In this document: positions 5,371 to 61,979 of the stretch, one piece after another
Position numbering within the stretch: the first letter of the stretch is position 1
Layout of the letters: every line of letters begins with the position of its first letter
Assembly: GCA_947184155.2 (NCBI GenBank)
Contig: CAMXCT020000113.1
Coordinates: 1,536,501-1,600,500 of the forward strand
Origin: Cladocopium goreaui
Lineage: Eukaryota; Sar; Dinophyceae; Suessiales; Symbiodiniaceae
Direction of reading: 5' to 3'
Length of the DNA stretch: 64,000 bases
Translations under genes and position numbers: made by a program
Notes under the pieces: generated by a model
What the model was told of the DNA's origin: nothing
Databases searched by the model: none
Seen by the model: the letters and a program-made list of their open reading frames with translations, nothing else

Positions 5371-5371
5371 C

Positions 5372-18592: not shown

Positions 18593-18603
18593 GCGGACTG
18601 TAT

Positions 18604-24600: not shown

Positions 24601-25986
24601 CGCCTAAAAAAAGGGCCACAAAGACCCTACATTGATGCTGAAATATGGCGAAGACGCCAGCTGAAGTTGGATCACAAAGCGCAGCTGAGGAACATCCGCC
24701 ATTTGCTCCGCAGAGAAACATTAGCCCGGATCTTTGCGGCATGGAAGGGGCCAACCACATGGCAACAAGATCAATCCTTTTGTTTTGGCACCACGCTTCG
24801 GATAGGCATTTTGAAACACGGGCTTGGATTCAGAAGACAAGCAGCTGTTCTGAAGGACCAGATCTACCAGAACAAGAATGTCGCCCTGCAAGAGGTTCTC
24901 AGCCAATTTCATTCCAACACGGCAGCATCTGAAATTCAGCAGCAGCTGCGACCTTTTATGGGCACCAGCAGCAAACTGAAACAGGGGATGGCTCCGCTAC
25001 CACTGGTCAAAGATGCTCATGGAAAGCCCTGCACGTCGCACACTGCCTCCTTGCACAGGTGGATCGAATTTTTCAGCGAAATGGAAGGTGGTGAAAGAGT
25101 TGATGAGATTACGCAAAGAAAGCTCTGGAGAACCAATCTGAAGAACTTGCGTAGCTTCATTTTGGATATCCACATCACCGAGATGCCCACCTTGGCTGAA
25201 CTGGAGCAAACGTGCAGACAAGTTGCAGCAGGGAAAGCGTCAGGAATGGACAAAATCCCTTCGGAACTGCTCAGATACTGTCCAAAGGAAGTTGCGCGGC
25301 AACTTTACTCCTTGTTGTTGAAGATTGCAGTTCAGGGACAGGAACCTCTAGAGCACAAGGGAGGATACCTGATCCCCATCTGGAAGGGAAAGCTCAGCAA
25401 AGATTGCTGCCAAGCTTTTCGTTCTATCCTCATATCGTCCATGGTGGGGAAGACATTGCACAAATCTCTGCGCAACAAGCAGACGAGCCTCTATCAGAGC
25501 TACCTTCACCCTCAACAGCTCGGAGGACGCAAAGGCATCTCTGTTGTTCTATGTGGTCATCTGGTGCGAGCATTTCTTCGGGTGTTTGCAGCTCGAAATC
25601 AGCCTACAGCAGTCATTTTTATCGACTTGCAGGAAGCCTTCTATAGGGTTGTGCGCCCCCTGGCGATTGCAGGCCCGTGGTCTGATGAGCTTATTGCCAC
25701 CATGGCCAAACGTTTGCACCTGGACCAGAACATCCTGCACGACCTCTATGCTCACTTAGCAGAGCCAAGTGCAGTGGAACGAGCCCAGATGAACATGACA
25801 GCACAGAAGGCTATCCAAGCGCTGCACCAAGACACTTTCTTCGCGCTGCCCGGCCAGGATGACCGTGTTCGAACCACACATGGCTCACGACCAGGTGATT
25901 CATACGCTGATGTCGTGTTTGGGTACTTAATGTCCCGTTTTTGCAGCTTCAGTGGAACAAGCCAACATCTTGACCAAGATCCCTGA
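18604..25986 (+). CDS. LINE ORF2 polyprotein: repeated domain, RNase H, APE endonuclease, RT (N-terminal 2460 aa)
   Basis: This enzyme nicks the target and reverse-transcribes the LINE RNA. I chose the Met at 18604 because upstream the frame only shadows ORF1. Segments: a Cys-containing start (DFCCECG); three related blocks near 19402, 20923 and 21637, each opening TW(Y/F)(L/I/V).. ; RNase H at about 22915-23420 (IYVDGSSQ, AEREALLWA, RSDSMLAL, HVPGHAGDPFNEFCDW); APE endonuclease at about 23640-24415 (TGNVLSL, VQETRAS, GYAPHSG, IDANAG, TIDYVLIP, VIDHAVHAIEL); RT from about 25190, with motif A FIDLQEAFYRV and motif B THGSRPGDSYADVVF. A frame change in a T run near 25940 ends this frame at 25986; the continuing frame reaches 26044, where another element is inserted. 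Confidence 0.88.
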   Translation: MTLWYCSRKPDLLDLPAVAAMKWSHSIMREPDFCCECGAREAAQKLAFELKLEGLHHDHAGQCSLSKPRDSKRRNLHVGFAESTTLRLSFDDDWAFHEFCLPSMFFTIGATPWSGCQKIAEMKQSRFHVCPWFDGGLARRGESTEAQDGSGIATPPTGTASNPSLNLNIESSNGADSVAVVDPITGSISSLMPPNDTSSKGIFQCKITDNHFDNPARRAQQEVPEPDPDIIPDIQEAPQFAQDLYAIGERTGIFSDPDSDGVLRVRTWYLHHQHLLVNFHSRTVEIEDDWRRWADDIIGSWRSHLHAGASIFFHLVTPDPYRGYLRQEVHCDILITQGNDLPRRAGLITVHYQGDQLDPHTYAVASSLEIVVSGRRLAEAADADQWCLNMRHRCSISIGWQHIPFDFQQVHQVLNGNAFTILITKSSHSNELAASSQGLPQQEHDYEELPFEERSNPSPGHARTASSSSSRPESDVGVHVYRLERPDAHCYIRWDEYRHILFNVAHCLGVPRNDIVAMHFLQAHPIGIHTENERAVILQSFADIRAASSEQLVLLDLEIHAHALPNGLLVPPTVTRRVMRIHPPVHRSQLLLLNGLNDYCELHGDKCIVFENNIIWPAHDRTVHALTHGAYIRIQIPPPEDPLLDTETAIAISREFALEADRGQQATFCQTHQPSRPHLHGHGEEDHSLFQHSIKRFVDTCTTWQSQWQPEHFKVAPDQVVHPTLPIGGQEHQQRHPPRPRSRFHDRDFDTLSNLFESRSIIECEEEGPIAYVDTWYIHHSNSPQCRAPRAVRLFHDPASWLEDLLEPWRDVIDPELDTTIYLVRPTPPCTLFECILAHLIIEQAPRQDYVVGLISIHEANFQGAIIDHRAFSLPSLMTARSVIRQADIQARCSTRSCTVRRGAISLDPLDPDHVDPGTNFVIFIRDQGLFASSSNLENDETGFMQRPPELDHGDADAGAAEGAFALNPNAAAFCPGQAPLNVQPETIQELHEHWSRTAFSWEHESASTSVMTWFVDQFHPHLRTCGQPRLVRLYEDFDTWESTMRAAWNDVQLPGAPILFHIVLPVPPNTGPEIAAHVLLVQNPQDPLSSCVVSVFEATAVAARLTFQVAITTQEHLLLEHLIFGLGIEGRCLYPGAPSICEAWIGSVALRQGQPHPARDGDGIILQLRMRPNFQQQQAQRNEGTNLLQVGTQLRTRRERRLTHGLVAHTHGPPPRAPEPAWRAVRLARASQDLPHLPSYVEVLEPLSKAKVQQELETFGIHCNVLLLSTEQIALCLAPSAAAEQSQRHIAYLPQQEPGEVHLHTMPVTSLSEIEHMRHLYSLGYEKAVILQEIQCEYNFSEIHFTEASGGMQQNPIKNKVLPPWPPHQQQRQCGQMFHTLQNQSTSDCSLSCGINEKDLMDFFNSSKGSLCTSFDDLDLPEICTQHFATLAHHSHFDRLVIYVDGSSQARCRHIAPQLNDEIGIPDAWCFLVMGETYTSSTTSELSLIGWSAHQVRCCPDHEWYVGADRIGSAIAEREALLWAMMWRIGQNSNIPTLFRSDSMLALQQARGEVGSLSCDLSFQSLRGCAQLLESALAPGDFLLDHVPGHAGDPFNEFCDWGAKLEGSKGFYFKRPNIELATWRPLLPFLWMLFDTAAGMPPFKGTGFDVRPPALPAIAPPAKKEPRAPTQRTLEFVLSIATGNVLSLGQGHAGFAGKLDYLRAQLRDLHLNFFGVQETRASAGSSLKGGVLRLSSGADQGQGGVELWCNLAQPIATGQGKSLYLERKRFTVVCNDSRRLLVRVLHDSFEAWFFVGYAPHSGYSMQERETWWKTTQDILTNFVEDQIPLFVCIDANAGPGEADGSHVLMSGFRTSSGTALLRDFLNDMQLCAPITSRVHEGTTCTWTSPAQEEFTIDYVLIPTSWLECCASSCVLAEFDLGNKVIDHAVHAIELKWKRTCSTTSSTSLSKGDFDRNRIRLCLPKNFIPATVAPWNTDVESHLIGINDHLHGQLRRHCPRLKKGPQRPYIDAEIWRRRQLKLDHKAQLRNIRHLLRRETLARIFAAWKGPTTWQQDQSFCFGTTLRIGILKHGLGFRRQAAVLKDQIYQNKNVALQEVLSQFHSNTAASEIQQQLRPFMGTSSKLKQGMAPLPLVKDAHGKPCTSHTASLHRWIEFFSEMEGGERVDEITQRKLWRTNLKNLRSFILDIHITEMPTLAELEQTCRQVAAGKASGMDKIPSELLRYCPKEVARQLYSLLLKIAVQGQEPLEHKGGYLIPIWKGKLSKDCCQAFRSILISSMVGKTLHKSLRNKQTSLYQSYLHPQQLGGRKGISVVLCGHLVRAFLRVFAARNQPTAVIFIDLQEAFYRVVRPLAIAGPWSDELIATMAKRLHLDQNILHDLYAHLAEPSAVERAQMNMTAQKAIQALHQDTFFALPGQDDRVRTTHGSRPGDSYADVVFGYLMSRFCSFSGTSQHLDQDP
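22915..23420 (+). other. RNase H domain placed N-terminal to the endonuclease in LINE ORF2
   Basis: The catalytic set is visible in order: D in IYVDGSS, E in AEREALLWAMMW, D in LFRSDSMLAL, and H/D in DHVPGHAGDPFNEFCDWGAK. Known LINE clades that carry RNase H have it after the RT; here it comes before the APE endonuclease. The ending HxPGHxGxxxN is the usual RNase HI style. Confidence 0.8.
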
Positions 25987-26044
25987 CGATCCGAGCATTG
26001 ACTTGCACTCCAGGGGGTTTGCTGACTCTGTGCATCCTCCTCAG
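25940..26044 (+). pseudogene. LINE RT continuation after a frame change, up to the insertion point
   Basis: In frame 2 the sequence reads AASVEQANILTKIPDDPSID then LHSRGFADSVHPPQ, ending exactly at the TCAG target duplication. After removing 26045-41997 it joins TLLGPCWMDDLAIPL in the same frame, giving a continuous RT segment between motif B and motif C. Confidence 0.8.
26041..26044. repeat. target-site duplication TCAG, left copy
   Basis: TCAG directly precedes the left terminal inverted repeat and TCAG (41994-41997) directly follows the right one. Deleting the element with one copy restores the host RT frame, which supports a 4-base duplication. Confidence 0.8.
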
Positions 26045-26076
26045 AAGCAAGTTGCATAGCATTTGGTGTTTGAAGC
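26045..26076 (+). repeat. left terminal inverted repeat (32 bp)
   Basis: Starts AAGCAAGTTGC and ends TTGGTGTTTGAAGC. Compared with the reverse complement of 41962-41993 it matches at 29 of 32 positions; the differences are at positions 12, 13 and 18. Similarity stops abruptly at both ends. Confidence 0.88.
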
Positions 26077-26452
26077 ATGGGCTCCGGAGTTTGAAAAACA
26101 GCATTTTGCCTCTATTTGGGAGTTGGACTTCTTAGTTTTTGTGGTGCTCAGTCATCAAATAAGCTCCTGAGGGTTAGATCTTTTGATATGACATCACATC
26201 AATCTTTGTGTTCCATTTACATGTCACTGGAACCTTGCATGATATGCTCTTTGGATGTGACATCTCGTATCTATGCGTTACATTTTTTTGTCGGCAAATT
26301 CTACGTAAAAGGTACAATGGACTGGTGATTTGTTGGGTTGTTATTGCTGATAGTATGAAAGTTGGTTGGTTAGTCATGGTTGCGCAGGCTGGTTCCGGCA
26401 GTGAAGCTACAAGCATTGCAGCCATGCTCATTTAGCAGGCTGCGAACCTTTG

Positions 26453-26482
26453 AAAAAAAGGAGCTGCACTAGCTTCCTGCAT
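26453..26482 (+). repeat. GGAGC...TTCCTGC motif, single unit
   Basis: An A-run followed by ggagctgcactagcttcctg, a variant of the motif found in clusters further inside this element. It lies about 400 bases from the left terminal repeat. Confidence 0.5.
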
Positions 26483-26955
26483 CGAGGTGATGGCGCCAGC
26501 AGCCGCGACATGCAACAGATTTAAGAGGTGATTCTGCAGCTGCGTCCAATGCTAATAAACGCTGTAAAGCTTCTACAGGGTGGCAAAGCTTCTGGATCAT
26601 AGATCAGCTCATCTCAGTGAACACGTTGAAGTGGCTTGAAATAATCAATGTGGCCATTCCCTAGCTGCTTATGTTGTTCAATTAATTTGATAGGATGGAT
26701 TCACCTATATGTTTTGGAGCTTACCATTTTTATCTGTAAGCCAAAGGCATGAACACAATGTATGCTGTTCACACAAAGCATCCGGTTTACAAGGCTTGCC
26801 ATTTGGAAGCCTGGCGAGAAAATGAGGAACATATTTCAAGTTGCTGATGCTGCCGTGCAAATAGTTTTCACTCTCAGGAGCAAGAGATTAACAGTGCCAG
26901 CAGCCTCTGATGGGCTGTGAGCTATTCTATGGAGATCCCGCCAGTCCACTACCGC

Positions 26956-27330
26956 TCATTGTTCAGCCGAGTCGGTGCCAAAGTGATCCTTTGTCAGCTT
27001 GAACCTGACGCACATCTGCTCTTGCTCCCAAACGCCCCAGAGTTCAACCTCTGTCATCCACGGCCCGCTTTGGCTTATAGAATATTCTCGCACTTGAAAA
27101 ACCAGCTCTTCAAAGCAAATGACATCTCTGTCACCCACGACATGAATTTCGTAGTTGGCTATCCATCTCAGCAGACTCTCCATGCGCACATCCGATGTGC
27201 GATCGCCGAGGGCTACCCAGGGCTTAGTGCCACAAAAGGGGCTTTCCATCTGGTACAAGTACTCGTCGAGATCAGGCACGCCATTAGGCCAGTCCATACC
27301 TGGGATTGTAACTTTGAAGATTCTAGACAT
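26956..27330 (-). CDS. hypothetical protein, 124 aa
   Basis: Not recognised. The - strand frame begins MSRIFKVTIPGMDWPNGVPD and ends FGTDSAEQ. It is acidic, Trp/Glu-rich and globular in look (DVICFEELVFQVREY, WMTEVELWGVWEQEQ), more protein-like than the overlapping + strand frame. The Met at 27330 was preferred to one 10 codons upstream because the upstream part is Lys/Phe-rich and may be untranslated. It lies near the left end of the TIR element, in the same direction as the other element genes. Confidence 0.4.
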   Translation of the reverse strand: MSRIFKVTIPGMDWPNGVPDLDEYLYQMESPFCGTKPWVALGDRTSDVRMESLLRWIANYEIHVVGDRDVICFEELVFQVREYSISQSGPWMTEVELWGVWEQEQMCVRFKLTKDHFGTDSAEQ

Positions 27331-27505
27331 GAATGAAAACTCCCTGATTTTACACGTCATGACTCCTGAATGAACGAAGACAAGTCACCCATGCGATCCG
27401 CATACTTGCTTTGCGCCATTGGTGGTCACGGAAAGCAGAGGCTGTTTTAGCAAAGCTTAGCCCCAAAAACTGCAACAATAGAACACAGGATCGTGACACT
27501 GTGCC

Positions 27506-27640
27506 AAAAGGAGCTTACAGCATCCTGCACAAAGGAGCCAAAAGGCATCCTGCAAAAAGGAGCTTACAGCGTCCTGCACGAAGGAGCCAAAATTAAGGCA
27601 TCCTGCCCAAAAAGAAGCATAAAATGCTCCTGCACTCGAA
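27506..27640 (+). repeat. cluster of four GGAGC...GCATCCTGC units
   Basis: Units read ggagcttacagcatcctgc, ggagccaaaaggcatcctgc, ggagcttacagcgtcctgc and ggagccaaaattaaggcatcctgc, separated by short A-runs. The cluster lies just 3' of the - strand gene at 27.8-31.3 kb and separates it from the 124-aa ORF. Confidence 0.8.
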
Positions 27641-27828
27641 AACTCCCACACCGTGAGCTGGAGGGAGGAATTGGCCTCCTTTAATTCCGCAATTTTTTCT
27701 CTGCGGACAATCGACTCTCTACGCTGGCAATCTGTCAAAATCCTAAGCACGGTGTTCCCTAATTTTGTTCACAAAATCCCCTCACCGTCTTGGTGGGTTG
27801 CAGCCAGCAGCTCTCAAAATTCATTCAG

Positions 27829-30800
27829 TCATTCAGCCACATTAGTCAGCTGCAGCGCGCTTTGTGGAGGAATGATGCAGCTGCCCTTCAGCCAGACACT
27901 TGGCTTGATTCCTGTGAGGCCTTGTTTTGCAAATCGTGTGGACCAGACAATCTGCACCTTGCTCAAGTCCCAGCAGTCGGCAGGGAAAAGCCCAGCGATG
28001 ATCAAGTAGTTGGCCTTTCCACCTCCTTCAACTGTCATCTTCTCTGCCCGCCATGCAACTCGGTGCTTCACCTCGACGGTGAAGTCGCCAGGCCCATGCT
28101 GCCCCTGAGGATGTTCGGTAAGGCTGTGGTACCTGACCATTGCTTGCTCTGGCTTGGATCGTTTCATGGCGTCGATGACTTGGAAGAGACTTTGCGCTTG
28201 GTTGTCCATAAAGACAATCTCAGAGCTTCCCTCAAACTTCCACATGATATCCACAGCTGGATCCCACATTTCAGTTGTTTCCTTCGGCTGCCACCATTTT
28301 CCCTTCTGCCATGACGTCAAAGACCCAACCACGGGAATAGGAGCGGGAGTAGTGTTCACAAGCATCAAGCGGTTGCTGGGAAACAGCTGGAAAGTCAGGC
28401 CTTTCAGCTTGTTGCTGCAACTCGCTTGAATCAGCAGCTTTGTCATGTCGAGCTCGGCCACATGAATGAACTCAAACTTGGTCGCAGCAGCAGGGTTCTC
28501 CACGGGGTCCACGGCATTGCTGGTGCGCAAGCGCTTGCTCGGCCGGTCAACATTGTCCTTCACAGGGATGACTGCGTTCATTTCTTCAAGAAGTGCTTCC
28601 CAGTCATCCTTGAAGGAGCTGGAGCCCCACTTTGCAGCCAAGCTCTGCGGCAGCTGGAGGTTCAGGCCATCCACGGTTCCCACATTGAGGGCTGGCGCCA
28701 AAATTTCAGGCTGTTGATCTGCAGGCAGAGTTTCGGGCAGCGGCTCAAAGTCCTTCACCTTCAAGGTCCGGGACAAAAACAGATCAACGGCCAAGTCGTG
28801 CAAATCAGTGCGTGCCCATTCCATTTGCAACTCCGGCGCCAAAGCAATGTAATGCAATGCAGTGGATGCAGCAGGCATTCTGAGCACGGCTCGCGCCACG
28901 TCACCTGTCTTTGGGCTGAGATCAACAATTGCCACACAGGCATGGCCAGAAGGTAGAGTTGCAAATGTAGAGGAAATCAACGCCGCAGCTGCAGATTCTC
29001 CGATTTGACAATACTTGTCTGCAGGATTCAGACGGTCCTGCAAATCAGAGCTTGGCAAGTCATCTTCAGTCTCCGGCACTCGCATGTCCTTGACTTGCAA
29101 CATCTGCGCCCTGCTGCTGGTTCTGTTGTTGACATACAGAGCTGATCTCATCCAGATGCTTTGCGTCACATTTTTTGGTCCACTACGCAAAGGAAAGGCC
29201 AGCCGCAGTGGATACTCAAGGGGACGTCTGTCTCTGGGATCTGCTCTGTCCTTCCCATGCTTTGAAAACGCAAAAATGAGGCACAGTTACCTGGACATGA
29301 CTGAGAAAATAACACTTGTCCTCGAAACTCAAGGAGGCTTTCTCATCGGTGTTGATGTCTTTCTCGCTCAAAGATTTGAGCAGCAAGTTCTCGGTCTTGT
29401 AAAGAGATCCTTTCGCGCGTTCCCAAATTGGCATCAAAATGATGCCCATGGTGTCTACGGAGTCTGCAGCAAAGAGGTTGGTCATAGCCTGCAGCTGCAT
29501 TGACATTTGCTCCTCCCGCACAACAGATGGAGCAGCCCAGTTGACAATCAGCAGAACCAGCAGCGGTTGGCTGAGGCGATACTCACGGCTCAGCTGCCCC
29601 AAAGTAGCCACCACATCTTCGACTGCAGAGACAAACTTGAACTGAGAGGCTGGTCCAGTGAAAAGCGTCGCCGTGGCTTCCTTGGCACTGATGCGTCGCT
29701 TCCGAAGGTGCTCAACCCGAGCATGGTACAAGAGGCTCTCATGACAAGCAAGCTTCGATCTAAAGACCGACACTGCCTGGATGTCGCCTTTGATCTTCTG
29801 ATGGACAAGCTCCCACTCCATCTTCTCAAACTTGCTGGCCTCGATCTCGGTCTTTGCATGGCCCAGCAGCGCCAGATCTGTGCAGGACTGCTTTTTCTGG
29901 TGGAATTCTCGCAGAATCGTCCTCGGCTTTCACAAACAAGTCATTGATGTTATCCGTGAAAAGTGAAAAGCAAGAGATTCTTTTTAGACAAGTTATTATC
30001 TTGAAACAGACTGTGAAACTGTGGATCAGCCAAGGAGCACATCCTTCCAGCAAATGTCAGATTTCTTCTCATGCAGCAGGCTTTGGAGATCTAGCGACAG
30101 CGTCACATCTCCGTCAAGAAATTTCTCATGCACAGCTGCCAGGTCTTCAGGATCTACAGCATGATGTTGGGCTTCTGTCTTCGCCCATGTCCAGAATGCA
30201 GAAAGCTGCGAGTGCTCCTCCAACCTCGATTTTTCCAAACTTCGCCTCGACTTCGGGTTCTTGGCCAGGTGCTGTCTGTTGAGGCTTGCAATCCAAGTTT
30301 CAAAGGACTCCGCTGTTACAGCAAGAATTGGGTTCCAAGAACTCCTGCCAGTCCGCGGTGCAAAGTTCGGCAGCAGCTTCTTATTGCAGAAGCTATCTTC
30401 TCCCCACCACACGGCACGGGGACCTATCCTGGAAAGCAAATCCACCATCATCTCACATCCCCGCTTGCAATTTGGCTGCAAAAGAGCCAGTGCTGCCACA
30501 CGGCAGTTGCCAGTCACCTTGCCTCTAGCGCTTGCATTGCTGTTGAACTTCTCCAGGATTGCTGCAGGCCTGTCACTCCCACCTTCCAGAAGACGCAGTT
30601 TGTTCACCCAGGTCATCACATCATGAGCCTGGCGGATTGACCCGGAGCAACTCAAGTGCGCATTGGCTATCGCCACAGAAGTCAGGCTGGCATGGGCTTG
30701 GAACATGACATGGATCAGCTGGACAGACCGATATATGTGGGGGAAGTGCACCATGACGTCCACGGCCAGGTCCCGGAAGAGCGCCAGCAGTGAAAGCAAA

Positions 30801-31333
30801 GACACACATCGCGCACAGCCTTTCACATAGCGGCAGCGGAAGTCAACTTGCGAAAGCACACGGTCTTCTGGGCTGCACCATAGAAGCAATGGTTCAGCTT
30901 CTGTCAAGAACCCATGCACCAAAATCTCTTCCAGGATGTGTCGACATGTGCAGCGGTACGGAAACCCTTTGGTGCTGCGATCTGGGCTGAAGGAGAGCGT
31001 AGACACATGGACGAAACCTTTATCCTTCTTTCCCAAGACAGCAGGCTGAACATAATCAATTGAAGCCATCCAAGGGAACACGGATGACAAAGAAGCACGG
31101 AAGTCAGCTTCTGAATGTTTAAATCTCTCAGCCAGCCATTGGGAAGGGCCTCCACATTCATCGCAAAGGACATCGAAAGCTGTCAGCACACGTTGCTGTA
31201 GGGTTTCCCTGTCAGTGATCCCCTCGCAGGGCTGCATCACTTCTCCCATGCGACTTGAAGGCGCAAGCTTGACCTCAGAGTCTTCAAAAGAGTCGAAGAC
31301 GGGGCTCTCAAGTTTCTCCTCCACTGTGCTCAT
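27829..31333 (-). CDS. large protein of unknown family, three coding segments
   Basis: Not recognised. Segment 1 (30026-31333, first clear Met MSTVEEKLESPVFDSF) has Cys-rich patches (FDVLCDECGG, PYRCTCRHILEE, YVKGCARCVSLL) that could bind metal, then a helical region. Segment 2 (about 29216-29900) starts near SCTDLALLGHAKTEIEASKF, is helical and includes LLVLLIVNWAAPSVVREEQ. Segment 3 (27829-about 29255) begins PLEYPLRLAFPLRSGPK and includes a KRLRT basic patch (RPSKRLRTSN) and WKFEGSSEIVFMDNQAQSL. Frame changes separate the segments: a probable intron near 29.9-30.05 kb, and a very short intron or one-base indel near 29.25 kb. The frame is open 5' of the Met to an acceptor-like gtcag at about 31430, so an upstream exon is possible. 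Element-encoded by position. Confidence 0.55.
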
Positions 31334-31590
31334 TTCTTCAGCTTTTGCATCCACGAAAGAATCCTCCTGCTCAGGCTTCGGCTCCACCAAGGCAGCCTCC
31401 GTGGCTCCTGAAACCGAGGCAGTTGCAATCTGACAGCCTTAAATGGCTTCGCCATGACTTCATGACTGAGTCTCATTTCCCAGAGACAAGCAAATGTTGA
31501 CTGTCAGCCAAAGCAGCATGTAGAAGCAACTCAATGCTTCTGCAAAACATAAGTAAAGAATCAGAAGAACCACGGTGTGTGTGTGTGATG

Positions 31591-31745
31591 ACAAGGAGCA
31601 ATGATGCATCCTGCAACTAAGTATAACCAGGTTGTACTTCACTATTTTACGAGTTTGCCGACCTAATGTGCATGCTATGTCTACAATGTGTAGGAGCCAG
31701 TTGGGCGTCCTGCAAAGATGTTAGGAGCAAAATGCATCCTGCGAA
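31591..31745 (+). repeat. three GGAGC...GCATCCTGC units between genes
   Basis: Units: ggagcaatgatgcatcctgc (31595), ggagccagttgggcgtcctgc (31693) and ggagcaaaatgcatcctgc (31723). They fill the gap between the large unknown gene (5' end about 31.4 kb) and the Arg/Ser-rich gene (3' end 31916). Confidence 0.75.
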
Positions 31746-31915
31746 CTGCGCTGCTGCTGAGATTTTCTCTGGAAGACTCGGAGGCAGTCCTTTCGTCATG
31801 GAGCTATAGCACTCTCACGTTGCTGCAGTTGCAGAAGCTCCAGCAGCTCCGCCACCTCCGCCATGGGTGTCATCGTCATCGCCACCAGGCGGGCCTTTGA
31901 GGCAAAGTGGTCACA

Positions 31916-32949
31916 TCAAAAAAAATAACACACAAGGGTTTCTATTATAGGTGGGAAAAAACTTGATTCAATCAATGTCAAGCAACTGTCACGGGGAGGA
32001 GGTTTTGGTCGCACTTCATTCGGGTAGTGCTCTGCAAACCAACGCCTTCGCTTCTCAGGGTTTCCCTTGGTTCCTCGTCTCTTTTTTTCCTTGCGACCTT
32101 CATCATTGTCATCATCATCATCAGGGCGTCTGCGGCGGCGGCGGCTGCGAGAGCGTGCCCGGAAGCCAGTGCCTGCAATGATGAAAGTTTTGAGGAATCG
32201 GATGTCATCTTTCAGGGACGGGAAAGTAACAACAATTTAATAGCTAAGCTGCTCGCAGCAGAAGGACTGGCTCCTTCGCGGCGTGGATCAGGAGCCACGG
32301 TCATCACCGACTTGGGCCAGGCGCCAGGAAGGGAGGACAAGGAAGCAGCTGGAGTGGGGCCAGGAGCATCATCATGTCCGGTCGAGGACAAGGAAGGACC
32401 TGGAGTGGCTGGAGAGCTGCTCTTCCTCGCATACCTCGGTGCAACAGGCATGGTCCTAGCCCCTTCAGGTCGATTTTTTGGCCCTGCTACAGGGCTCACT
32501 GGACGGCGAGTGGAACGTGGGGGCGGCTCCTCTTCCAGAGGAATCTCCTCCATCTCGTCATCGGCAGCAGGTCGAGCTGTCCCAGCAGGAGGAACTGCGA
32601 CATCCTCATCAGGCTCCTCCACTATTGGCGTCACAGTCATAGGCCGCACTGGCATTGCCGGAATTGGACCAGGGCGGAACCCTGGGGGGCCCATCATAGA
32701 GGGACCCATCATAGTAGCAGCAGCAGCTGGAGGACCCATCAGCTGCATGCCGGGCGGCATCCCCGCGATCATGCGAGGTGGCCTTGCCTGCCATTGCGAC
32801 ATCATGTGCATCTGTGGAGGCAACATCGGCATACCAGGGTGCCATGGAGCAGCCGCAGCAGCAGCCCGCACCTGGCTTTGGTGCTCATCTTCTTGTAGGA
32901 CCTCTAAAAGGCCTTGGGTCAGATGCAACAGGGCACGACGACCAGCCAT
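31916..32949 (-). CDS. Arg/Ser-rich, Met/Pro-rich nuclear-type protein, two exons
   Basis: Exon 1 (about 32240-32949, Met in MAGRRALLHLTQGLLEV) is low complexity with Met/Pro repeats (WHPGMPMLPPQMHMM, MMGPSMMGPPGFRPGP) and an acidic region (EEPDEDVAVPP). Exon 2 (31916-32172) follows an acceptor cattgcag and reads GFRARSRSRRRRRRPDDDD, then KEKKRRGTKGNPEKRRRWF and HYPNEVRPKPPPR before a stop at 31916. The basic/RS/acidic mix suggests a nuclear, nucleic-acid-binding protein, by inference. The donor is unclear; a GC donor near 32250 is possible. The long + strand frame over the same DNA is a shadow: it lacks the splice signals and the ordered Met/Pro repeats. Confidence 0.5.
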
Positions 32950-33069
32950 GGCTCGAGGAGGCGATGTCACCACAGGAGAAACAGGAGAGTTACAGAAAAT
33001 ATTCTGATGTTGGTTATTTGACGCGGACAGTTTTGAAGTATATGAACTGTATGTACAGGTAATCACTTG

Positions 33070-35550
33070 ACATGCCTACGCAAATCTACTGTGATTCCTG
33101 TATTTCTATCACTGCCAACCCCGGTCCTTGAGCTTTCAGCGTGAAGTGGAGGACAGCATTCGGCTTCCTGGGCCCCACGCAAAGTGGTTTAATTCTGTCG
33201 GAAAAATCAACGCTGTGGCTGCAATGATTCATGGATCATTGTTTGTCTTCCCTACAGCGAAGGCGTTTCTGCTGCAAAAGAATATATGTTTATTTGAAAG
33301 ATACATAGACCCAAGGCATTTTGGTTTTTATAGTGAACGCAAAGTTGACAGGAATGTTTTGGGATAAGTACATCTTTTTTCCACATTGCTTGGACACATG
33401 CTGGACAATTCTATTGCCAGCGTGTTTGGACTAATATTGTATAATATGTTTTCAGCACACAGAAGTCTATGCAACAACATGTAATTTGGAATATATTCCT
33501 AATTTTGCAGGCATGTTGGAGAAACATTGACCAGAACATGCTTGCGACAGGAAACAAGTAACCAATGTGAAACACTTGAGTAACAGCATTGATTCGTTTA
33601 AAAAACGCAATCTAGCTTTTTCCATGACAAAGAGGAGGCAATCATATTCTGTGACAATCATATTCTGTGACACTAAAACCACCAAAGACAGAGGCAGCCC
33701 CACTGCAGAATAAGTAAATTTGTTTCAATTCCTGAGGGTCATGGGGTCTAGAAAATAGGGTATATATATATATAATATATATGTATATAATTGTTTCTCG
33801 AAAATTTACATTCAGTTTTGGGAAACAGTTTCGGCCAAAAAACAACTACAATATATTTTTTTACATCTCATATCTTTATTCAGAAAGTATATTTTCGAAT
33901 GCTTTTTTTGGCAAATGCAGCAAAGTCACCTACACAAAATGAGTAGTGGACTTTGCAGCAGTTCGGTAGAACTGCTGCGATCCCCTTTCTTCAACAACTT
34001 TTTGCAGCGAAGTCACCTTCACAAAATAAGTACCTGACTTGGCAGCAAAAAGTTTTTTCTCTGGGAGATCTCAGCAGTTCGCTAGAACTGCTGCGATGTT
34101 GGCCTCTCAATTTGAGTAGTCGACTTTGCAGCATTTACATGTTTAAATTTAAAAAATATAAAATGTTCTTTTGTTTTTTGAACATATATTGCTGCGGTTG
34201 ACCAATCGACTTGGCCAATTTCTAGGACCCAATTGTAGCAAAGTGATGTTTCAAAGGGGCTGCCTGGCACGCTTTATGTATAAAAAAGCTGGTAGGTCCT
34301 CTTGCGTACAAAAAATGAAGGTAGCTGTGGGTCATTGTTTAATTTTTTTTGTGCAATCAGTGAAAAGAAGTGTAGTCTTCGTAGCAAGCGCTGCCGCACA
34401 ATGATTGGCAATAATGTTTTCTTGTTTGTGGTAAAAAATGTTAGGTATTGGGTTGATCATTCAAGCAAGTTCCAAATAAACGTGCAGATGCCCCGGAGGA
34501 AAAAACACTTCATTCCATGACTGTTCCCAATATTGCTAAACTCCTTGTCCCTAAAAACTGACGAGATCTTTTCTATGACGGCTTTTCTTGCATATCAAAA
34601 ATATAGCACAAAATGTGGACAAGTGTGGGATTTATCCTGTCTTGCATCACTGTAGTTTTGGAATGTTGTCAAATTATCTTGTCAGACACTGCTGAGCCTT
34701 GATCTTAATCCCTTTCTCTGACAACACAGAATGCGCGACAATTGTTTATCACCAAAAAGAACTCCAAAATGAAGCTCGGGGAATCAAACATGCAGCCCAT
34801 CACTCTTTCGCCAGTATTGCAAAATGCGATCTTTGCAGCAACCATGCACCAAGATGTGTTTGATTTTGATTCCGTTTTACTTCAACAAGAAAGCAGAAAT
34901 GTGGGAGGCTGTGATTTGCATTTGTTCTTTTCCATGCTTCCTTTTCAAACAGAAATATTTACTATTTGGAAGCTTCTTGTTTTTAGAAAGAACAGTTTCC
35001 AATAATAGCGTTTGATGCATCATAGTTTGGATTGTAAAGTTTCTGTTGAAGTTGGTCGTGAAAGAGCTGTATTTGCTGCCCCTGACAATGTCCTTATTTT
35101 GGAATTAGCAATGAAAACTTCCTGTTCAATCACACAGGGTGTATTTTTTTCAGACCAAAAAATGATCCACTGTTGTTACCACTTTCAAAGAAGGTGCTCG
35201 CATCAGATTCCTATAAAACCATCGTGTATTAATTGCAACTGATTGTTTCTTAAAGCGTGAATATTGCAAATAGTCTGTTTCTCTTGTTCACTGCTTAAGT
35301 TGCTGCAGCTTTCAGTGTTCTATGAAGCAACCGTGCCTTGTTCGCTGAAATGCCTTTGCCTGGAAAAACTATTGTTTTTCATTCATCGCGGTATGTGGCG
35401 ATTCCTTTAAACAAAGAACTTTGAAAAAGTCACGGTGACTTGTTTGGATATGTTTCCCAAGACTTGTTCACTTGTTATGATATATTGTACAATCATGTCA
35501 ACTCCAAAACACATTGTTTGTCAGGATTGTGTACCCCAAACGGTAAGGCG
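33070..35550. other. 2.5 kb without supported genes inside the TIR element
   Basis: AT-rich DNA with only short open frames on both strands, a (TA)n tract at about 33760-33790 and two related hairpins near 34.0 kb. I see no convincing exon. It separates the two gene groups of the element. Confidence 0.5.
33955..34093. repeat. two hairpins with the same stem in a duplicated block
   Basis: At 33955-33978, GCAGCAGTTC and GAACTGCTGC are exact inverted arms around GGTA. At 34072-34093 a 9-bp version of the same stem encloses GCTA. Both are accompanied by copies of a block like caaagtcacctacacaaaat (about 33920) and cgaagtcaccttcacaaaat (about 34007), so a unit of about 100 bases has been duplicated. 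Confidence 0.75.
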
Positions 35551-35565
35551 CAAGGTGCTGCCTGC

Positions 35566-35674
35566 AAAAAAAGGAGCTAACAGCATCCTGCAGGACAAAC
35601 ACGGTAGGAGCTACACAGCATAGACTGGAGCGTCCTGCAGTAAAAGGAGCAATCAGTATGCATCCTGCAAAGGC
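35566..35674 (+). repeat. cluster of three GGAGC...GCATCCTGC units
   Basis: Units: ggagctaacagcatcctgc (35573), ggagctacacagcatagactggagcgtcctgc (about 35608, longer) and ggagcaatcagtatgcatcctgc (about 35645). The cluster lies about 90 bases 3' of the methyltransferase-like gene. Confidence 0.8.
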
Positions 35675-35765
35675 GGCGACTATGTTTTTCCCCCCTAATG
35701 CATGGTTCTGAATGTTTGGATCGAATTTCCATCGACCGTTGTCAATGGTGCAGGTGCATCTACTC

Positions 35766-36512
35766 TTAGTTGATGAATTCCACGCTCACCTCAGCACGGA
35801 TTGCTGCAAGCATGGTTTCCACCATCAATGGCGGATAAGTTTCGCATAAAGAAGACAGCTGCACTCCATTCTCCGATCCTTCGATGCGCCTGTGGGGCAC
35901 TGTGCATTGGCAGAAGGCACCATCAAATGCTTGACCCAGCTGAGGCACATTGTGAACCAATCGGGTTCGCTTGCGAATGGGTTGCTGGCTACCCGGGCTG
36001 CGGAGCCCAAAGCGACATTGGTCAAAGCGTGTCACAATGACACCCGGTTGCTGGCTCAAATGAAGTAGAGGCCCAGTCTTCCAGCTGGATGCACCATCTG
36101 GGTGTTCAAAGACAAAGTGCCGACGACACCGCAGCTGATGCAGGCCAATTTCACACGCAAAACTCAGCAAACGATCTGCTTCTTCTCGAAGCTTCTGGTA
36201 CTTGGCTTCACCCATGGCCTTGCGACCCCACATGTTCACCAGCGCTGAATATAATGTGCAAGGGGGAGATAGCACAAAGACCTTGGGTGCATACAAATTG
36301 ATGTGGTTCCACACTGTTGCGCGGCCATTGACGCCAGCTAGATCCATCTCCTCGTCGTCTTTCCAATCAAACGACTCGCCCGCAATCAAGTTGAAAAACT
36401 GGCACCTTGGAACCAGGCGTGGGCGACTGAAGAGCTCTGACACATCCACTGTGTCATCGGAGACAATTTCCATGATGGCATCCACGCGCCGCGTTGACAG
36501 GTTGTCACTCAT
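35766..36512 (-). CDS. PPC/EHP methyltransferase-like protein, 248 aa
   Basis: Motifs in order: a Rossmann-like start DVSELFSRPRLVPRCQFF, an acidic strand EEMDLAG, the PPC loop VFVLSPPCTLYSALVN, then FVFEHPDGASSW, RFDQCRFGLRSPG, IRKRTRLVHN and a terminal YPPLMVETMLAAI. This follows the module in the copia polyprotein of this window almost motif for motif (PPC, EHP, DQCxFGL, K-T). By analogy with cytosine-5 methyltransferases the Cys of PPC would be catalytic, but the ENV motif is replaced by EHP, so activity is unproven. The Met at 36512 follows a TAG in frame, so this start is reasonable. A short exon-like frame (36506-36622, SKVLSDEFFVSEAVVQELA) ends across the start codon and may be joined to it by splicing or an indel. 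Confidence 0.65.
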   Translation of the reverse strand: MSDNLSTRRVDAIMEIVSDDTVDVSELFSRPRLVPRCQFFNLIAGESFDWKDDEEMDLAGVNGRATVWNHINLYAPKVFVLSPPCTLYSALVNMWGRKAMGEAKYQKLREEADRLLSFACEIGLHQLRCRRHFVFEHPDGASSWKTGPLLHLSQQPGVIVTRFDQCRFGLRSPGSQQPIRKRTRLVHNVPQLGQAFDGAFCQCTVPHRRIEGSENGVQLSSLCETYPPLMVETMLAAIRAEVSVEFIN

Positions 36513-36622
36513 TGTGACGACAGTCTAGCAGGGGCACTTTTCGCCCCCAAAGTATCTTCTGCTTTGCAAGCTCTTGAACCACAGCTTCAGAAACAAAGAA
36601 TTCATCACTCAGCACCTTGGAT
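36506..36622 (-). CDS. short exon-like frame upstream of the methyltransferase-like gene
   Basis: After an acceptor-like cttgcaag the - strand reads SKVLSDEFFVSEAVVQELA, then KQKILWGRKVPLLDCRHNE, with its stop overlapping the downstream ATG in a different frame. It is probably an N-terminal exon of the methyltransferase-like protein displaced by one or two bases, or a separate exon end. Confidence 0.4.
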
Positions 36623-37106
36623 CTTGCAAGAAAGCGCCGGAGAAACCGAGGCACACAGAATCAAGCTTACTTCGAAAATTCCCAACCTTTACCAGGCGAC
36701 AAATGAGCAGCCCGGCAATGATTTTTGGCCGTCATAGCTTTGTCATATATCTTTTGCTGAGCAAAATACGTTCCGTCCATGCAGTTGATGGACCTCCCCT
36801 GTCTGCCTTTCTCAGCCGTGTCGACAGACCCGAAGCAACAAGACTGCGTGAAATTCAAGAATACTTTGACCGCTTGCTGATGCAGCGTAACATGTTACTT
36901 CAGCAAGCATGCAGCATGACTTTGTACTTAACTGTTTTTCACCGACAATTTCACTCAGAATTGTCTTTCCCCTAGTCGTGATCAAAAGCTCACAGCAACG
37001 GTCCAGCAGCGACATGCATCTGGCTTCAGAATTGTGGGCAACTGTTCTACACCCAACTGTTTCTGCAACACTTGTTCTCCCGAAGCAGAAATCATGATGT
37101 CCAGAC

Positions 37107-37771
37107 CTACACTGCGGGCTTCAAAATCCAGACGCCTTTCTTGTCACTTTCGACCAAGCCTGCCTTGGGCCTGCAAGTCGTGCAGCCAACCTCGTCATGC
37201 TTGCACTTGCCGCAGCCAACTTTGACACCAGGAGGAATGCTAATGCGTCTCTTCTTAGCGCTAGGCTCAGCAGGCGCCGGGGGCGCAGCTTCAGCAGCAG
37301 GCAAAACACCGTCTAATGCTGCAGGTGCAGGTGCACCAGCAGGAGCAGCAGCAGCGGCTCTCCCTCGCCCCTTTCCTCGTCCTCGTCCCCGTCCTGGTTC
37401 TGCTTTCGGAGCTGTCTTGGCAGCTGCCCTGGGGGCTCTCTTATAACAGCTGCCTTTGGAGCTGCAGCAGAGCAATCGGTGCCAGGAGCAGGTCGAGGTG
37501 CAGCTTCAGCATGCTGTCCTGGAGGACATCCTTTCTCAATTGCAGCTGATCCAAGAGGAGCGCCTTGCACTGAAGAACCAGCAGGCGCCGAAGACGTGCG
37601 TTTGGTCTCTGGCACCACAGCAATCTCCAAAGGCCCAGTGAAGGCAAAGCCCAAATCCAACTGAGGTCCTAAATCATCTTCACGGACAGAATGTCCACGA
37701 CGGCCGCCGAAGACCCAATGAATCACGGGCAAGATCCAAGAATCGGCTCGGCCATGGCGGTTGTTGATGAC
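37107..37771 (-). CDS. Ala/Pro/Arg-Gly-rich exon with a Cys cluster
   Basis: After an acceptor (cactgcttag|gtc) the - strand reads VINNRHGRADSWILPVIHWV, then an Ala/Pro-rich stretch. A one-base frame change near 37450 continues into KTAPKAEPGRGRGRGKGRGR (AT-hook-like), a KKRRIS basic patch and a Cys cluster GCGKCKHDEVGCTTCRPK (C-x2-C-x7-C-x2-C, possible metal site) before WILKPAV and a stop. Phase and position fit a third exon of the DUF7869-like gene just upstream, with a GA or other non-GT donor near 38110, but that junction is inference. An AT-hook plus Cys cluster would suit DNA binding by a transposase. Confidence 0.45.
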
Positions 37772-38086
37772 CTAAGCAGTGAACCAAATAATTAGCAAAA
37801 AAAAGACTTGAAAAATGACAAAGAAGAATGGATTTCAATTGTCAAGTAGTGGCCTCCCGATTGAACTTAAAGGAGTGTCGCAGGGCCCCATCAGGCACAT
37901 TAATCCCATTTGTCCTGATGTCATCGGCTGCCCTCCTAGCCGGTTGGCCTCAAGGCTGCCAGCAAGACGCTTCAATCTAGAAGCTCGCTGCTGGTGCGAC
38001 TCACTCCCCTAAAGCCCCACACCCGGGCAACGGTTTGAACCCAGCAGTTTAAGGAGGGTTCCGGAAAGGCAAAAAAAAACAACAAG

Positions 38087-40190
38087 TCAAGTGGCTAGCT
38101 CCATCAGGTAGTTGTGAGCTTGCATGTAATCCCACTGCTTCATGAGCTCGGCAGTTTTCTGGAACTCCTTGCTCTGGCGTTCGGAGAATTTGTGCCTAGG
38201 AATCGGAATGTCACAAGGCCGCGGGCTGAGCTTGCAGAGCCATGCCCAGGGAAGGAAAAGGATGGGTGCCTGCGAAAGGTTCTTTGAAGCCATGCACAGT
38301 TTGGACAGCAAGATGACGTCTCTGCTGTTTTGTTCCACACCTTTCAAGACATCTGGAACCTGAATGGCAGCTTGAAAGTTTGGTGGAAGACTTTCACGTC
38401 GCACGAGCTTGTAGGAATGGCAAGCCTCCAGGTTTTTCTTGGTAGCTTCTTTGGTCTGATTCAGGCCAGTGATGCGGGCACCAACCGCCATCAACCACGT
38501 TTGGAAATCCATAACAGCATGGGCCCTCTCAACATGGTAGTCCATGAGGTTTTGGTGGATCCTCTCCTTGAACTCGTCGGGATCTTGCAGCACCTTGGCC
38601 TTGCTGAGGACTGTGGCCACATGGCTGAAGGAAGCATCTTGCCGGTTATGGGTATGGCCCACACGGCCTTGGCACAAGACCGCCGAAGTCACATTGCCTC
38701 GGCCCACCATCACCCCGAGAAACTTCAGAAAACAGTTGTTCTTGGTCTCAGCAGTGGCATTGTCGGAGACACACCGAAAGTGCATTGGCAAATCCACACC
38801 ACGGTCAACCAATCGCTCTGCGACCACCTGCCAAAAAAGCCACAACGATTTGATTTAAACCAGTCAATTTAACAATCCGGGAAAAAAAAACTTAAATCCC
38901 AGAAGACCTCGCCTCAAGCGCTCGTGCTGTCACACAGCACTGTAAATTAGCGCTTTTTCCGATGTCCTGGTCAACCAAAAACAAAAACTTTCCTCCTGGC
39001 ACTCCGTCAAATATCAAACCGTGGGCTGCCAGCTGGGGACGCCACGCTTGTGACAAAGCCTTCGCCTGGACGATTTGTCTCGGAACTCGAAACTTCGCCT
39101 GGTCCATGGCGTCTTGTGTCCAGTTCAGCACTGCATTCTGCCGGGTCACCAAAGGACACCCGGTCGAAGTAGTGCCCACACTGTCTCTGCCAAGCTGTTC
39201 TGATTGGGCATCACAGGAACGGTCTTTCATAACTGAGTGCACGTGGTTTGACTGCGCAGCTTGAATTTGTTTCAACTGCACTTCGCACTGAGCCTTCTTG
39301 CGCAAGGCCTTGAGCCGTTCACACGTCTGACACTTGTTGTGGTCACTGGCATCAGCAATGCGCAAGAAGTTTTTGAACTCCGACTTCAGGTACTGCCGCC
39401 GGAAAGAAGTCTTGTGCACCGGGCTGTCGGACCAGTTGCAGTACATCTCATAGAACTCCTGCCAAGACATGTGTGGAAGGTAGCGCCGGGAATCTAACTT
39501 GCCAGAAGTCTCCGGACCGACCACAGGCTCAGCCAGCTCTGCTTCGTGGCAATCATCCAACCTCAAAGTTCTTTGGCTATCATCATCCTGCGGCATGTCA
39601 CACTCCACCTCCAGAGGCAAGGCACCAGGTTCAGATAGTTCCATGGTGGACCCATCTTCTGTCGGCACGTGCATTGCCCAATGGCTATAGGCGTGGAACA
39701 AAAACTTGTTCACATCTTGCTGTCCGGTAGACAACTGGGAGGCGCGATGATGACAGTTCAAACCCTTCTTCCGACCATCAGGAGGCGGTCCATCAGCATT
39801 CACAGCAGCCGCCAGCTCTTTCAACGTGCCGGACCCAATCAAATGCGCCTTTTGCCATGTTTTCCTGCAAACTGGAGTTCCTTGGATCATGTATTGCCCG
39901 GCTGGCACCTTCTGCGAAACCCTCATCTCACGTAAGAGAAGCCATTGACGCTGGCGGCGTTGCTGAGCATCACACTGAGACATCCCTTCACGCAAAACTT
40001 TGCAGGCAGTTTCCAAAGAGCTCTGAGGGGGCACGCATGGTCCATCCTTGCAACTGCATCCCCAGCGAACAGCGCACAAAGGATCTGAATCAGAAAGAAC
40101 AGGCCCATCATCAGAGGGCAAGCTGCAATCAGACTCCGACGTCGGCAACTCTGGAAAAGGCTCCATAGCGTTGGAACGCGACAGAGCCAT
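38087..40190 (-). CDS. DUF7869/DDE-like protein, candidate transposase (exons 1 and 2)
   Basis: Exon 1 (38913-40190) starts MALSRSNAMEPFPELPTSES, has a CSCKDGPC patch, WQEFYEMYCNW, then a Cys motif CQTCERLKALRKKAQ and a first acidic site FLFLVDQDIGKS. A GC-AG intron (38828-38912) joins it in phase to exon 2 (38087-38827): VVAERLVDRGVDLP, the second acidic site RCVSDNATAETKNN and RVGHTHNRQDASFSHVATVL. The D ... DN..xxxKNN ... GHTHxxxD spacing matches my memory of DUF7869 proteins, which are abundant in dinoflagellates, and looks like an RNase H-fold DDE/DDD centre. Its place inside a TIR element with a target duplication makes transposase the natural reading. Splicing may continue from near 38110 to the exon at 37771. 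Confidence 0.6.
38828..38912 (-). other. GC-AG intron, 85 bp
   Basis: On the - strand, cttgag|gcgagg to ttggcag|gtggtc. Splicing joins ARALE to VVAERL in phase 0 and removes a stop. No GT donor gives the right phase here. GC donors, often with a G after the acceptor AG, are common in dinoflagellate introns. Confidence 0.6.
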
Positions 40191-40305
40191 CTTCAAAATC
40201 AGCACCCCAGCTTGAAGTGACGTGGCCCCGGCGCTTCGCGTATGGGCCCAAAGCAACCAAATTCAGTAGTGCGTTTAAGGGAAGATTTAAAACACCAACC
40301 TTGAG

Positions 40306-40395
40306 TAAAGGAGCAAGAATGCTTCCTGCATACTATTTACGAAAGGTGCTTGGAGCTACCTGCCCTGACAGAGGAGCACATTGCATCCTGCAAAA
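40306..40395 (+). repeat. two GGAGC...CCTGC units 5' of the DUF7869-like gene
   Basis: Units: ggagcaagaatgcttcctgc (about 40310) and ggagcacattgcatcctgc (about 40373), followed by an A-run. They start about 120 bases upstream of the ATG of the - strand gene. Confidence 0.7.
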
Positions 40396-40399
40396 AAAG

Positions 40400-41370
40400 G
40401 GATGTGACCATGCAACTATGTGAAGCATCGCCTATCCCCAAAATTTCAACGCTTATCTTTACCCAAAAAAGATAGCACCACCTGCACCATATTGCGCAAC
40501 CCTGTTTTTTCTTGGATTGCGTTGCGCCTGGCCAGTGTCTCACGCCCATTCCTAAGACTGGCAATGGCTCAGCCAGAATGCTAGCGAAAGTCCAGGGGGA
40601 CTTGCAATGGTCAGAGGACTTCATGATTTGATCTAACCAGCAAGCCACACACATAGACATATTCTTATTCAACAATTTTGTCGATTAAACACGATATATG
40701 GATTTATTCACCCTGCCAACAACGTTGATGTTTCGGAGATCAAATCATTGAATTCCTGCGCAGGCACTGCGTCTTGAATGGTCGATGTTGTGGAGCAAAA
40801 ATAAGTTGAACCAATTTCTTTTATTCCTAGATAGCCAAGGGAAAAACATTTTATCCAATGCACTAGCGTGAAGCCACACGAAACAAGTTCAACACAGACG
40901 TGGCATCAGCCACAGCTACGACTGGCAAGTTGTCCTGATGGCGGACCAACAAGAATTTTGCAACCCAATGATTAACATTTCGGAAAAAAGCTGGCGAGCA
41001 AGCAGCCCCTGACAGCATCACTGATTTACCAGAAAAAAAAGGGAAATGCGACGAACGACCATGTCACGAGGTCTGGACTCCAAGCCGGAAGTTCCACACC
41101 TGAATTGAAGCTTTGGAACATCCTCCGGCCAGGCCAGTCACCAAACATATATTTAGCAACGAGTAAATTGTGGAATTATATTTCTTTGAGGAAACAGGTC
41201 ATGGTAGTTTGTATTCTTTATCCAGAAGCCCTTGTTTTCATTTTCATCAGTGATGCACAGACTTGATAGTTGTTTCTCCGCATGTCAGATGTCCAGACAG
41301 CCAGACTCGAAAAAATGCACAGACCATAGCCCCATGAAAAAAGGCTCAATCAGCAACTGCATTTCAAAAT
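40400..41370. other. 1 kb without supported genes in the right end of the TIR element
   Basis: Short open frames only and no exon-like island. It precedes the last motif cluster and the right terminal repeat. Confidence 0.5.
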
Positions 41371-41477
41371 GATAGGAGCCATCAGGCATCCCGCCAAAAA
41401 ACCCGCAAAAAAAAGGAGCCGCAGGCTCCTTAGGAGCTGAGAGCATCCTGCAAAAAGGAGCTCAAAGCGTCCTGTAA
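41371..41477 (+). repeat. cluster of GGAGC...GCATCCTGC units near the right end
   Basis: Units: ggagccatcaggcatcccgc (about 41375), a compact ggagccgcaggctcc hairpin (about 41415), ggagctgagagcatcctgc (about 41431) and ggagctcaaagcgtcctg (about 41456), with long A-runs. The cluster lies about 500 bases inside the right terminal repeat. Confidence 0.75.
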
Positions 41478-41961
41478 TTTAAGCTACCGAGTGGTTTAAA
41501 CTGAGCCTAGTACAATGGCAGCGATTGCTTCCTTCCTGGTAGATCTTTTGAATAATGTTTTTGATTTTTTTTCATAGTTTTTGAATAATGTTTTGATTTT
41601 TTTTCATAGTTAGTACCACTAGACTTGTCAGCTTAGCTGACAAGCCAACTATATAATGAGCTCATACCGCTTTGAAATCACTGTCTGCAGACAAAGCAAT
41701 GCTTGGTACCCAAGCCTTCAATCATTCCTACCCAGCCTGTGCAACCATCAGTGCTGTGTCAGTGAGCTATGTGATGATCAATTTCTTGCACAATCCCAAC
41801 AGAAATATTGCTTAGCCGGCATGAAAGGATACTTCAAGCCATCTCACACATAATATGAGAACCTAGCTTCTAGGATAACAAATGATGTGCCAGAGAAGAA
41901 TATACATTAAACATATTAAACGAAATACGCAAAAAGACTGTTTCTGAGCACCCGTAGAGAC

Positions 41962-41993
41962 GCTTCAAACACCAATTGCTGCGCAACTTGCTT
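41962..41993 (-). repeat. right terminal inverted repeat (32 bp)
   Basis: Inverted counterpart of 26045-26076 with 29 of 32 matches; begins GCTTCAAACACCAA and ends GCAACTTGCTT, followed at once by TCAG. Confidence 0.88.
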
Positions 41994-41997
41994 TCAG

Positions 41998-60663: not shown

Positions 60664-60704
60664 GATCGTACATGGCTACGAAGCTGTCTCGGGCAGGCAT
60701 TTGC

Positions 60705-61730: not shown

Positions 61731-61979
61731 GATCGTACATGGCTACGAAGCTGTCTCGGGCAGGCATTTGCTTAGGGCCAGTGAATGCTGCTCAAAGGAA
61801 CTCCCAATTCAATGAAAACGATTCACACATATTCACAAAAATGGCTTCACATGCAACATATTGTGACACTGTGTGCAGTAAATCGCTTACAATATCTTAC
61901 AATCACTTGAGACCAACAGATCCTGACAGGGTCCTAGATTTTTTGTTGGCCCCAGTATGACCTCCAACCTGCCTGGCCC

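Follow-up and report, generated by a model that had tools for sequence, protein, structure and literature searches.

A 15,949-bp element with terminal inverted repeats and a DUF7869 gene, probably an autonomous DNA transposon, within a LINE of the dinoflagellate Cladocopium goreaui

A 64,000-nucleotide stretch of the Cladocopium goreaui genome (assembly GCA_947184155.2, contig CAMXCT020000113.1, positions 1,536,501 to 1,600,500 of the forward strand; called the window below, with positions counted from its first letter) contains an element of 15,949 bp at positions 26045-41993. Judged from sequence comparisons, it is very probably an autonomous DNA transposon of the cut-and-paste type that inserted into the reverse transcriptase (RT) gene of a long interspersed nuclear element (LINE) with a 4-bp staggered cut of the target. 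The best reading of the data is that it is a recently active terminal inverted repeat (TIR) transposon from a diverse lineage with two core genes, A and B, the first of which encodes a protein with the Pfam domain DUF7869. Duplications of 4 bp flank two independent insertions, related LINEs have an empty site, and there are several copies in the genome, with recent movement among them. The same gene set, all on one strand, is found in three copies, and the A and B core is found in diverged relatives. Two marks of an autonomous TIR transposon were found: TIRs with a duplication of fixed length at independent insertions (TCAG and TTCA) and an empty site in related sequences (16 of 52 proteins and five DNA copies).

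Ends, empty site and copies of the element

The element begins and ends with 32-bp TIRs, at 26045-26076 (+ strand) and 41962-41993 (− strand), which are alike at 29 of 32 positions and give it the termini AAGCAAG (AAGC..GCTT). On both outer sides the window reads TCAG (26041-26044 and 41994-41997), the target-site duplication (TSD). Both the inverted ends and the flanking TCAG had been pointed out in an earlier note on the window, and both are as described there. The note had set the boundaries at 26041-41997; the TCAG pair at these positions stands, but the element itself starts at 26045. When the genome from which the window comes was searched (1,165,616,438 bases [1.17 Gb] in 6202 contigs), the left 200 bases of the element matched four other contigs, with the match beginning exactly at 26045 in three of them (C2753, C5608, and C2259) and at 26041 in the fourth (C191). 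The right-end 200 bases matched the window and C2259 alone. With up to three mismatches allowed, the TIR pattern occurred in the window at the two ends of the element and nowhere else; 100 dinucleotide-preserving shuffles of the window gave no match. The same pattern had seven matches in the whole genome, and the reversed control had none.

The interrupted LINE lies on the + strand. Its 5′ part (17902-26040) has a match to an endonuclease domain (E = 1.8e-05) and one to RVT_1 that is below the cut-off (E = 0.092), and it ends at the codons for HPPQ; its 3′ part (41998-43566) begins inside TLLGPCWMDD. Excising the element and one TCAG in silico joined HPPQ to TLLGPCWMDD in frame, reproducing a junction already claimed for this site, and the joined frame read ...GFADSVHPPQ followed by TLLGPCWMDDLAIPL.... 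The joined peptide had at least 52 homologous proteins among the best-scoring candidates (in this search and in that with the main exon of gene B, the 8000 candidates with the most words in common with the query were scored). The junction is covered by 16 of the 52, among which the largest insertion in the compared stretch was 7 amino acids (aa), and two proteins, P0036 and P0062, are gap-free across it. Another, P0029, matches the 3′ part of the LINE with complete identity and begins at MDDLAIP, so it is uninformative on the junction. The only database hit that carries an organism name is one from Cladocopium goreaui, with 31% identity. The 222-base joined DNA had 13 matches in the genome: the window itself, split into two pieces with TCAG common to both, five further LINE copies aligned over 220-222 of the 222 bases with 70-81% identity, and six matches limited to the 3′ part. 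Uninterrupted LINEs, for which a search had been proposed in the note, are thus represented by 16 proteins and five DNA copies that span the junction. The earlier statement that the insertion sits within the RT core, after motif B and before MDD, stands with one refinement: the open reading frame (ORF) containing motif B (17902-25986) is in a different frame from HPPQ, so the LINE copy in the window must be broken once more or contain an unrecognized intron near 25.95 kb.

The earlier note had suggested looking for other copies with 4-bp duplications. One that has both ends and such a duplication is at C2259:8007-52331. Its ends face inward at 8007 and 52331 and are alike at 30 of 32 positions, and TTCA stands on both sides. 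This copy aligns to the entire element of the window and contains three nested insertions, which measure 900, 12,903, and 14,451 bp. C5608, the third copy carrying all of the genes, aligns as one block from 26045 to 41727, followed by 5000 N. C2753 contains the portion of the element up to 28929, and C191 contains only about 650 bp. The full gene set was found by tblastn in C2259 and C5608, and the three copies are collinear over it. Identity over aligned columns was 95.2% between the window and C2259, 95.3% between the window and C5608, and 99.6% between C2259 and C5608. C2259 and C5608 have different left flanks, that of C5608 ending in CCTT, and so represent separate insertions; their 99.6% identity at different sites indicates recent movement, which makes the system testable.

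Genes A and B and their linkage across the genome

All modeled genes of the element are on the − strand. The claim that it carries several genes on this strand, including one with DUF7869, was borne out by a gene set carried by three copies. Gene A has two exons. Exon 1 (38913-40190) was modeled from the first ATG used to the donor, the 85-bp GC-AG intron (38828-38912) was placed by comparison with the homolog P0008, and exon 2 (38087-38827) contains DUF7869 and the motifs SDN..TKNN and GHTHxxxD. In the spliced model of 672 aa, DUF7869 (PF25273) is at residues 379-552 (E = 2.3e-15), with a score of 57.2 bits versus a curated cut-off of 26 and with profile positions 3-170 of 192 matched. Exon 2 has eight homologs in the protein database, and DUF7869 matches all nine members of the alignment. 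The aspartate of GHTHxxxD is kept in 9/9 aligned sequences, and that of SDN is kept in 6/7 of those that cover it; aspartates in the order of SDN and GHTHxxxD are expected of DDD enzymes. Gene A is likely to be the transposase of the element. The Pfam entry assigns no function to DUF7869, and the domain was mentioned nowhere in the literature searched. Gene A shares with the Pfam DUF7869 proteins a match above the curated cut-off; what the window adds is that such a protein is tied to a TIR element with defined boundaries and accompanying genes. A domain without a known function thereby gains a mobile-element context with exact ends, a target duplication, and an empty site.

Gene B is downstream of gene A. 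Its main exon, B470 (30026-31438, stop-to-stop limits), had at least 20 homologs among the best 8000 candidates, two of which, P0017 and P0026, run from the 470-aa exon into a 237-aa exon, B237 (29318-29929, limits approximate); B470 and B237 are therefore one gene. The 485-aa ORF B485 (27829-29237, exon limits predicted) is probably the last exon. A Met/Pro-rich ORF (32212-32949) is perhaps the first, as the N terminus of the homolog P0019, ahead of its B470 part, resembles it when judged by eye. B470 had no match in Pfam or NCBIfam, no PDB sequence match, and a weak PHROG match (E = 0.092).

Both genes recur in the genome. Exon 2 of gene A matched at least 86 places with an E value of ≤0.001 (149 scored of 235 candidates), loci hit in two pieces being counted twice, and B470 matched 42 places (57 scored). 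Linkage was counted from these 42 B matches. A gene A match was within 45 kb of 35 of them, in all 35 cases on the same strand and with A upstream, whereas about 0.07 such pairs were expected if A were placed at random. The gap between A and B had a median of 5.1 kb and ranged from 21 bases to 19.7 kb. B identity across the 35 pairs was 19-100%, many pairs being near copies of each other and not independent. Thus, in many diverged families, DUF7869 is accompanied by one and the same partner gene.

The neighborhoods of gene A were examined in 30 loci, each with flanks of 1.5 kb, and in two additional pieces. A relative of gene D, a small ORF of the window element (see below), with 70.8% identity adjoins A in two loci of a sister family, C5916 and C861. 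Four loci (L038-L041) have a match to the PPC gene, also described below, next to A, and L049 and L059 have weak matches to B485. C5916 and C861 are 99.4% identical over the stretches compared. Their likeness stops abruptly some 3 kb upstream of exon 2 of gene A, at a common end point (C5916:352595 and C861:28988) where both read TAACGGTTATTACAG inward, a terminus unlike AAGCAAG. Such a break is what a transposon end would give, and this point is probably the end of a related sister element with a different terminal sequence. On two contigs, two different A+B families are about 5 kb apart in opposite orientations (C1785:115-131 kb and C3328:33-49 kb); perhaps one is nested in or beside the other.

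Proposed mechanism, alternatives and known transposon groups

In the mechanism that we propose, the 672-aa DUF7869 protein would act as a DDD-type transposase that binds the 32-bp TIRs, cuts, and joins with a 4-bp stagger. The product of gene B would be its partner, serving to bind the ends or the target or to regulate; gene D and the PPC module would be accessory, and the element would move by cut-and-paste rather than replicatively. Several observations weigh against this interpretation or narrow it. TSDs can be read on both sides in two copies only, the right end of C5608 falling in the N gap. In C2259, the PPC gene is split by the 12.9-kb insertion and exon 2 of gene A by that of 14.5 kb. 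The aspartate of SDN is replaced by glycine in one of the seven aligned homologs that cover the position, and the structure model of P0008 is too poor (predicted local distance difference test score [pLDDT], 50.4) for the fold comparison made from it to prove an RNase H fold. Seven of the 42 B matches have no A (C114, C2854, C2429, C703, C295, C4453, and C5956), three of which begin less than 6 kb into their contigs, so that A may lie beyond the contig edge. The TIR and TSD evidence covers the family in the window, and the other DUF7869 families are known by gene matches. In favor of the interpretation, ratios of nonsynonymous to synonymous substitution rates (Ka/Ks) between the window and C2259 or C5608 were 0.15-0.43 for the four genes A, B, D, and PPC; for the Met/Pro-rich ORF they were 0.49-0.58. 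All of these ratios were calculated from small counts. The four genes have open frames in both the window and C5608, and once the nested insertions were removed, they had neither a stop nor a frame-breaking indel in the ranges compared between the three copies. Indels are numerous in the Met/Pro-rich ORF, and one of those in C2259 and two of those in C5608 are not multiples of three.

It is unlikely, in our estimate, that gene A is not the transposase, with B or a protein encoded elsewhere moving the element and DUF7869 serving as cargo or regulator. B adjoins A at 35 of its 42 places, the activity of either protein is putative, and an RNase H fold of A is likewise putative, given the poor P0008 model. 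However, the aspartates of gene A are conserved in the order mentioned above, A matches outnumber B matches (86 versus 42 places), and the matches of B470 in the databases named above go no further than the weak one in PHROG. We consider it very improbable that the element is virus-like or Polinton-like or a composite of unrelated nested elements. Its large size and several genes would fit, and nested insertions are real in the C2259 copy, but no polymerase, capsid, or integrase domain was found with Pfam in the nine element ORFs scanned, and the A-B linkage is kept in diverged families; the composite version is refuted by the collinearity of the three copies.

How new the transposon is depends on comparison with described groups. 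piggyBac and Kolobok target TTAA, which the TSDs TCAG and TTCA do not fit. Polinton/Maverick elements carry genes for DNA polymerase B, capsid, and integrase, none of which was matched in the nine ORFs just mentioned. Chapaev, Sola2, and Academ each have a superfamily-specific transposase, with TSDs of 4 bp or of 3-4 bp. Ginger1 and Ginger2 resemble the window element in being TIR DNA transposons with a 4-bp TSD. In the available portion of their description, they have the termini TGTNR and a Gypsy-like integrase, Ginger1 measures 2.6-7 kb and has the TSDs CCGG or CCGT, and Ginger2 has the AT-rich target RTATAY (PMC2836005). The window element differs from them in its TSDs (TCAG and TTCA), its termini, its size of 16 kb, and the lack of an rve match in the scanned ORFs, and it was not placed in either group as there described. 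The CMCT group (EnSpm/CACTA, Mirage, Chapaev, Transib, and Plavaka) likewise consists of TIR elements, with TSDs of 2-5 bp and in some cases an accessory TET/JBP gene; the accessible text gives it mostly CA..TG termini and C(2)C and H(3-4)H motifs between the second D and the last E (PMC12730594). The AAGC..GCTT termini do not fit this group, and neither CxxC nor H(3-4)H was found between SDN and GHTHxxxD of spliced gene A, assuming that these two motifs are catalytic. Zisupton (KDZ), for which the same source gives an 8-bp TSD (PMC12730594), was rejected on the 4-bp TSDs of the window and C2259.

Literature searches covered TIR elements in dinoflagellates as well as new DDE superfamilies; among the matches listed, for which portions of the texts were available, none was recognizable as the window element. 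We regard the element as a TIR DNA transposon, set apart by the published descriptions from Ginger, CMCT, and Zisupton, and possibly as a new superfamily; that it is undescribed, as suggested in the note, is a supposition. Chances seem evenly balanced that there is, at least in this genome, a group of giant DNA transposons at the superfamily level, with a DUF7869 transposase, a downstream gene B on the same strand, exchangeable PPC and D modules, and a common internal repeat. Somewhat below even is the chance that the superfamily is known under another name and that the element is only a large new family of DUF7869 transposases. DUF7869 is a general Pfam family, 4-bp TSDs are known in described groups such as Ginger, and a superfamily name for DUF7869 transposons may already exist; on the other side, DUF7869 was unnamed in the literature searched, and the termini and TSDs misfit Ginger1/2, CMCT, and Zisupton as described in the portions seen (PMC2836005 and PMC12730594). 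Whatever its rank, the transposon points to large multigene elements of the cut-and-paste type at work in this genome besides retrotransposons.

Accessory modules, internal repeat and neighboring elements

The PPC gene (35766-36512, − strand) encodes 248 aa and is homologous to a module at 2301-3200 in a Copia polyprotein of the window (E = 5e-17, a single comparison). Its PPC and EHP residues resemble C5-methyltransferase motifs; Pfam found no methyltransferase domain in it. An accessory module is thus common to different element classes, and if the superfamily proposed above is real, unrelated classes of mobile elements would trade this module. The Copia-like polyprotein itself (3-6439) has an rve match and a zinc knuckle just under the cut-off, and it holds the PPC..FEHP module, in which Pfam found no DNA methyltransferase (DNMT) domain. 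Just past the LINE, an ORF at 43407-44591 has a GPPC motif and weakly resembles the PPC module (E = 3e-4, a single comparison). In the available portion of a study of Symbiodinium, Copia elements are without any DNMT domain, and the DNMT-bearing mobile elements are LINE and DIRS retrotransposons (PMC5890265). Our data resemble these in having a methyltransferase gene on a dinoflagellate mobile element and differ in its location, which is a TIR element nested in C2259 (described below); the window element has the PPC module only, for which Pfam gave no match.

Gene D is a 124-aa ORF at 26956-27330 (− strand). In C2259, the 900-bp insertion sits just upstream of its start codon as modeled. The repeat CAGGAYGC-N(3-8)-GCTCC occurs 10 times in the element, always on the coding (−) strand and outside the modeled ORFs. 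Three copies are at 27505-27576 (starts at 27527, 27552, and 27576), and a pattern search gave seven more starts (31613, 31712, 31741, 35590, 40390, 41450, and 41474). There are none elsewhere in the window, and the mean in 50 Markov simulations was 0.02. C2259 has 11 copies and C5608 has 9. The repeat is also present in sister-family loci, where it points the same way with respect to gene A. It may serve in regulation, trans-splicing, or binding; in the mechanism proposed above, it would be a common site for regulation, processing, or protein binding.

The insertions nested in C2259 are elements in their own right. That at C2259:18807-31709 (L015 and L016; 12,903 bp) has TIRs of about 44 bp (95%) and is flanked by CAGC, duplicated over 4 bp. 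One of its genes encodes a C5 cytosine methyltransferase (PF00145, E = 5.7e-25, L015:7756-8970), and it has ORFs that, by eye, resemble those of hAT elements, with no hAT match in Pfam. The large insertion at C2259:34323-48773 (L016-L018; 14,451 bp) is bounded by CCTGGACATG..CATGTCCAGG and an AA duplication; in an alternative reading of its ends, the duplication is 5 bp long, AGGAA. The 900-bp insertion (C2259:9293-10192) has the inverted ends TAATCCCTTCC and internal tandem repeats and resembles a miniature inverted-repeat transposable element. Elsewhere in the window, two near-identical tandem ORFs on the − strand (59455-60675 and 60705-61742) recall, by eye, an NYN-type nuclease.

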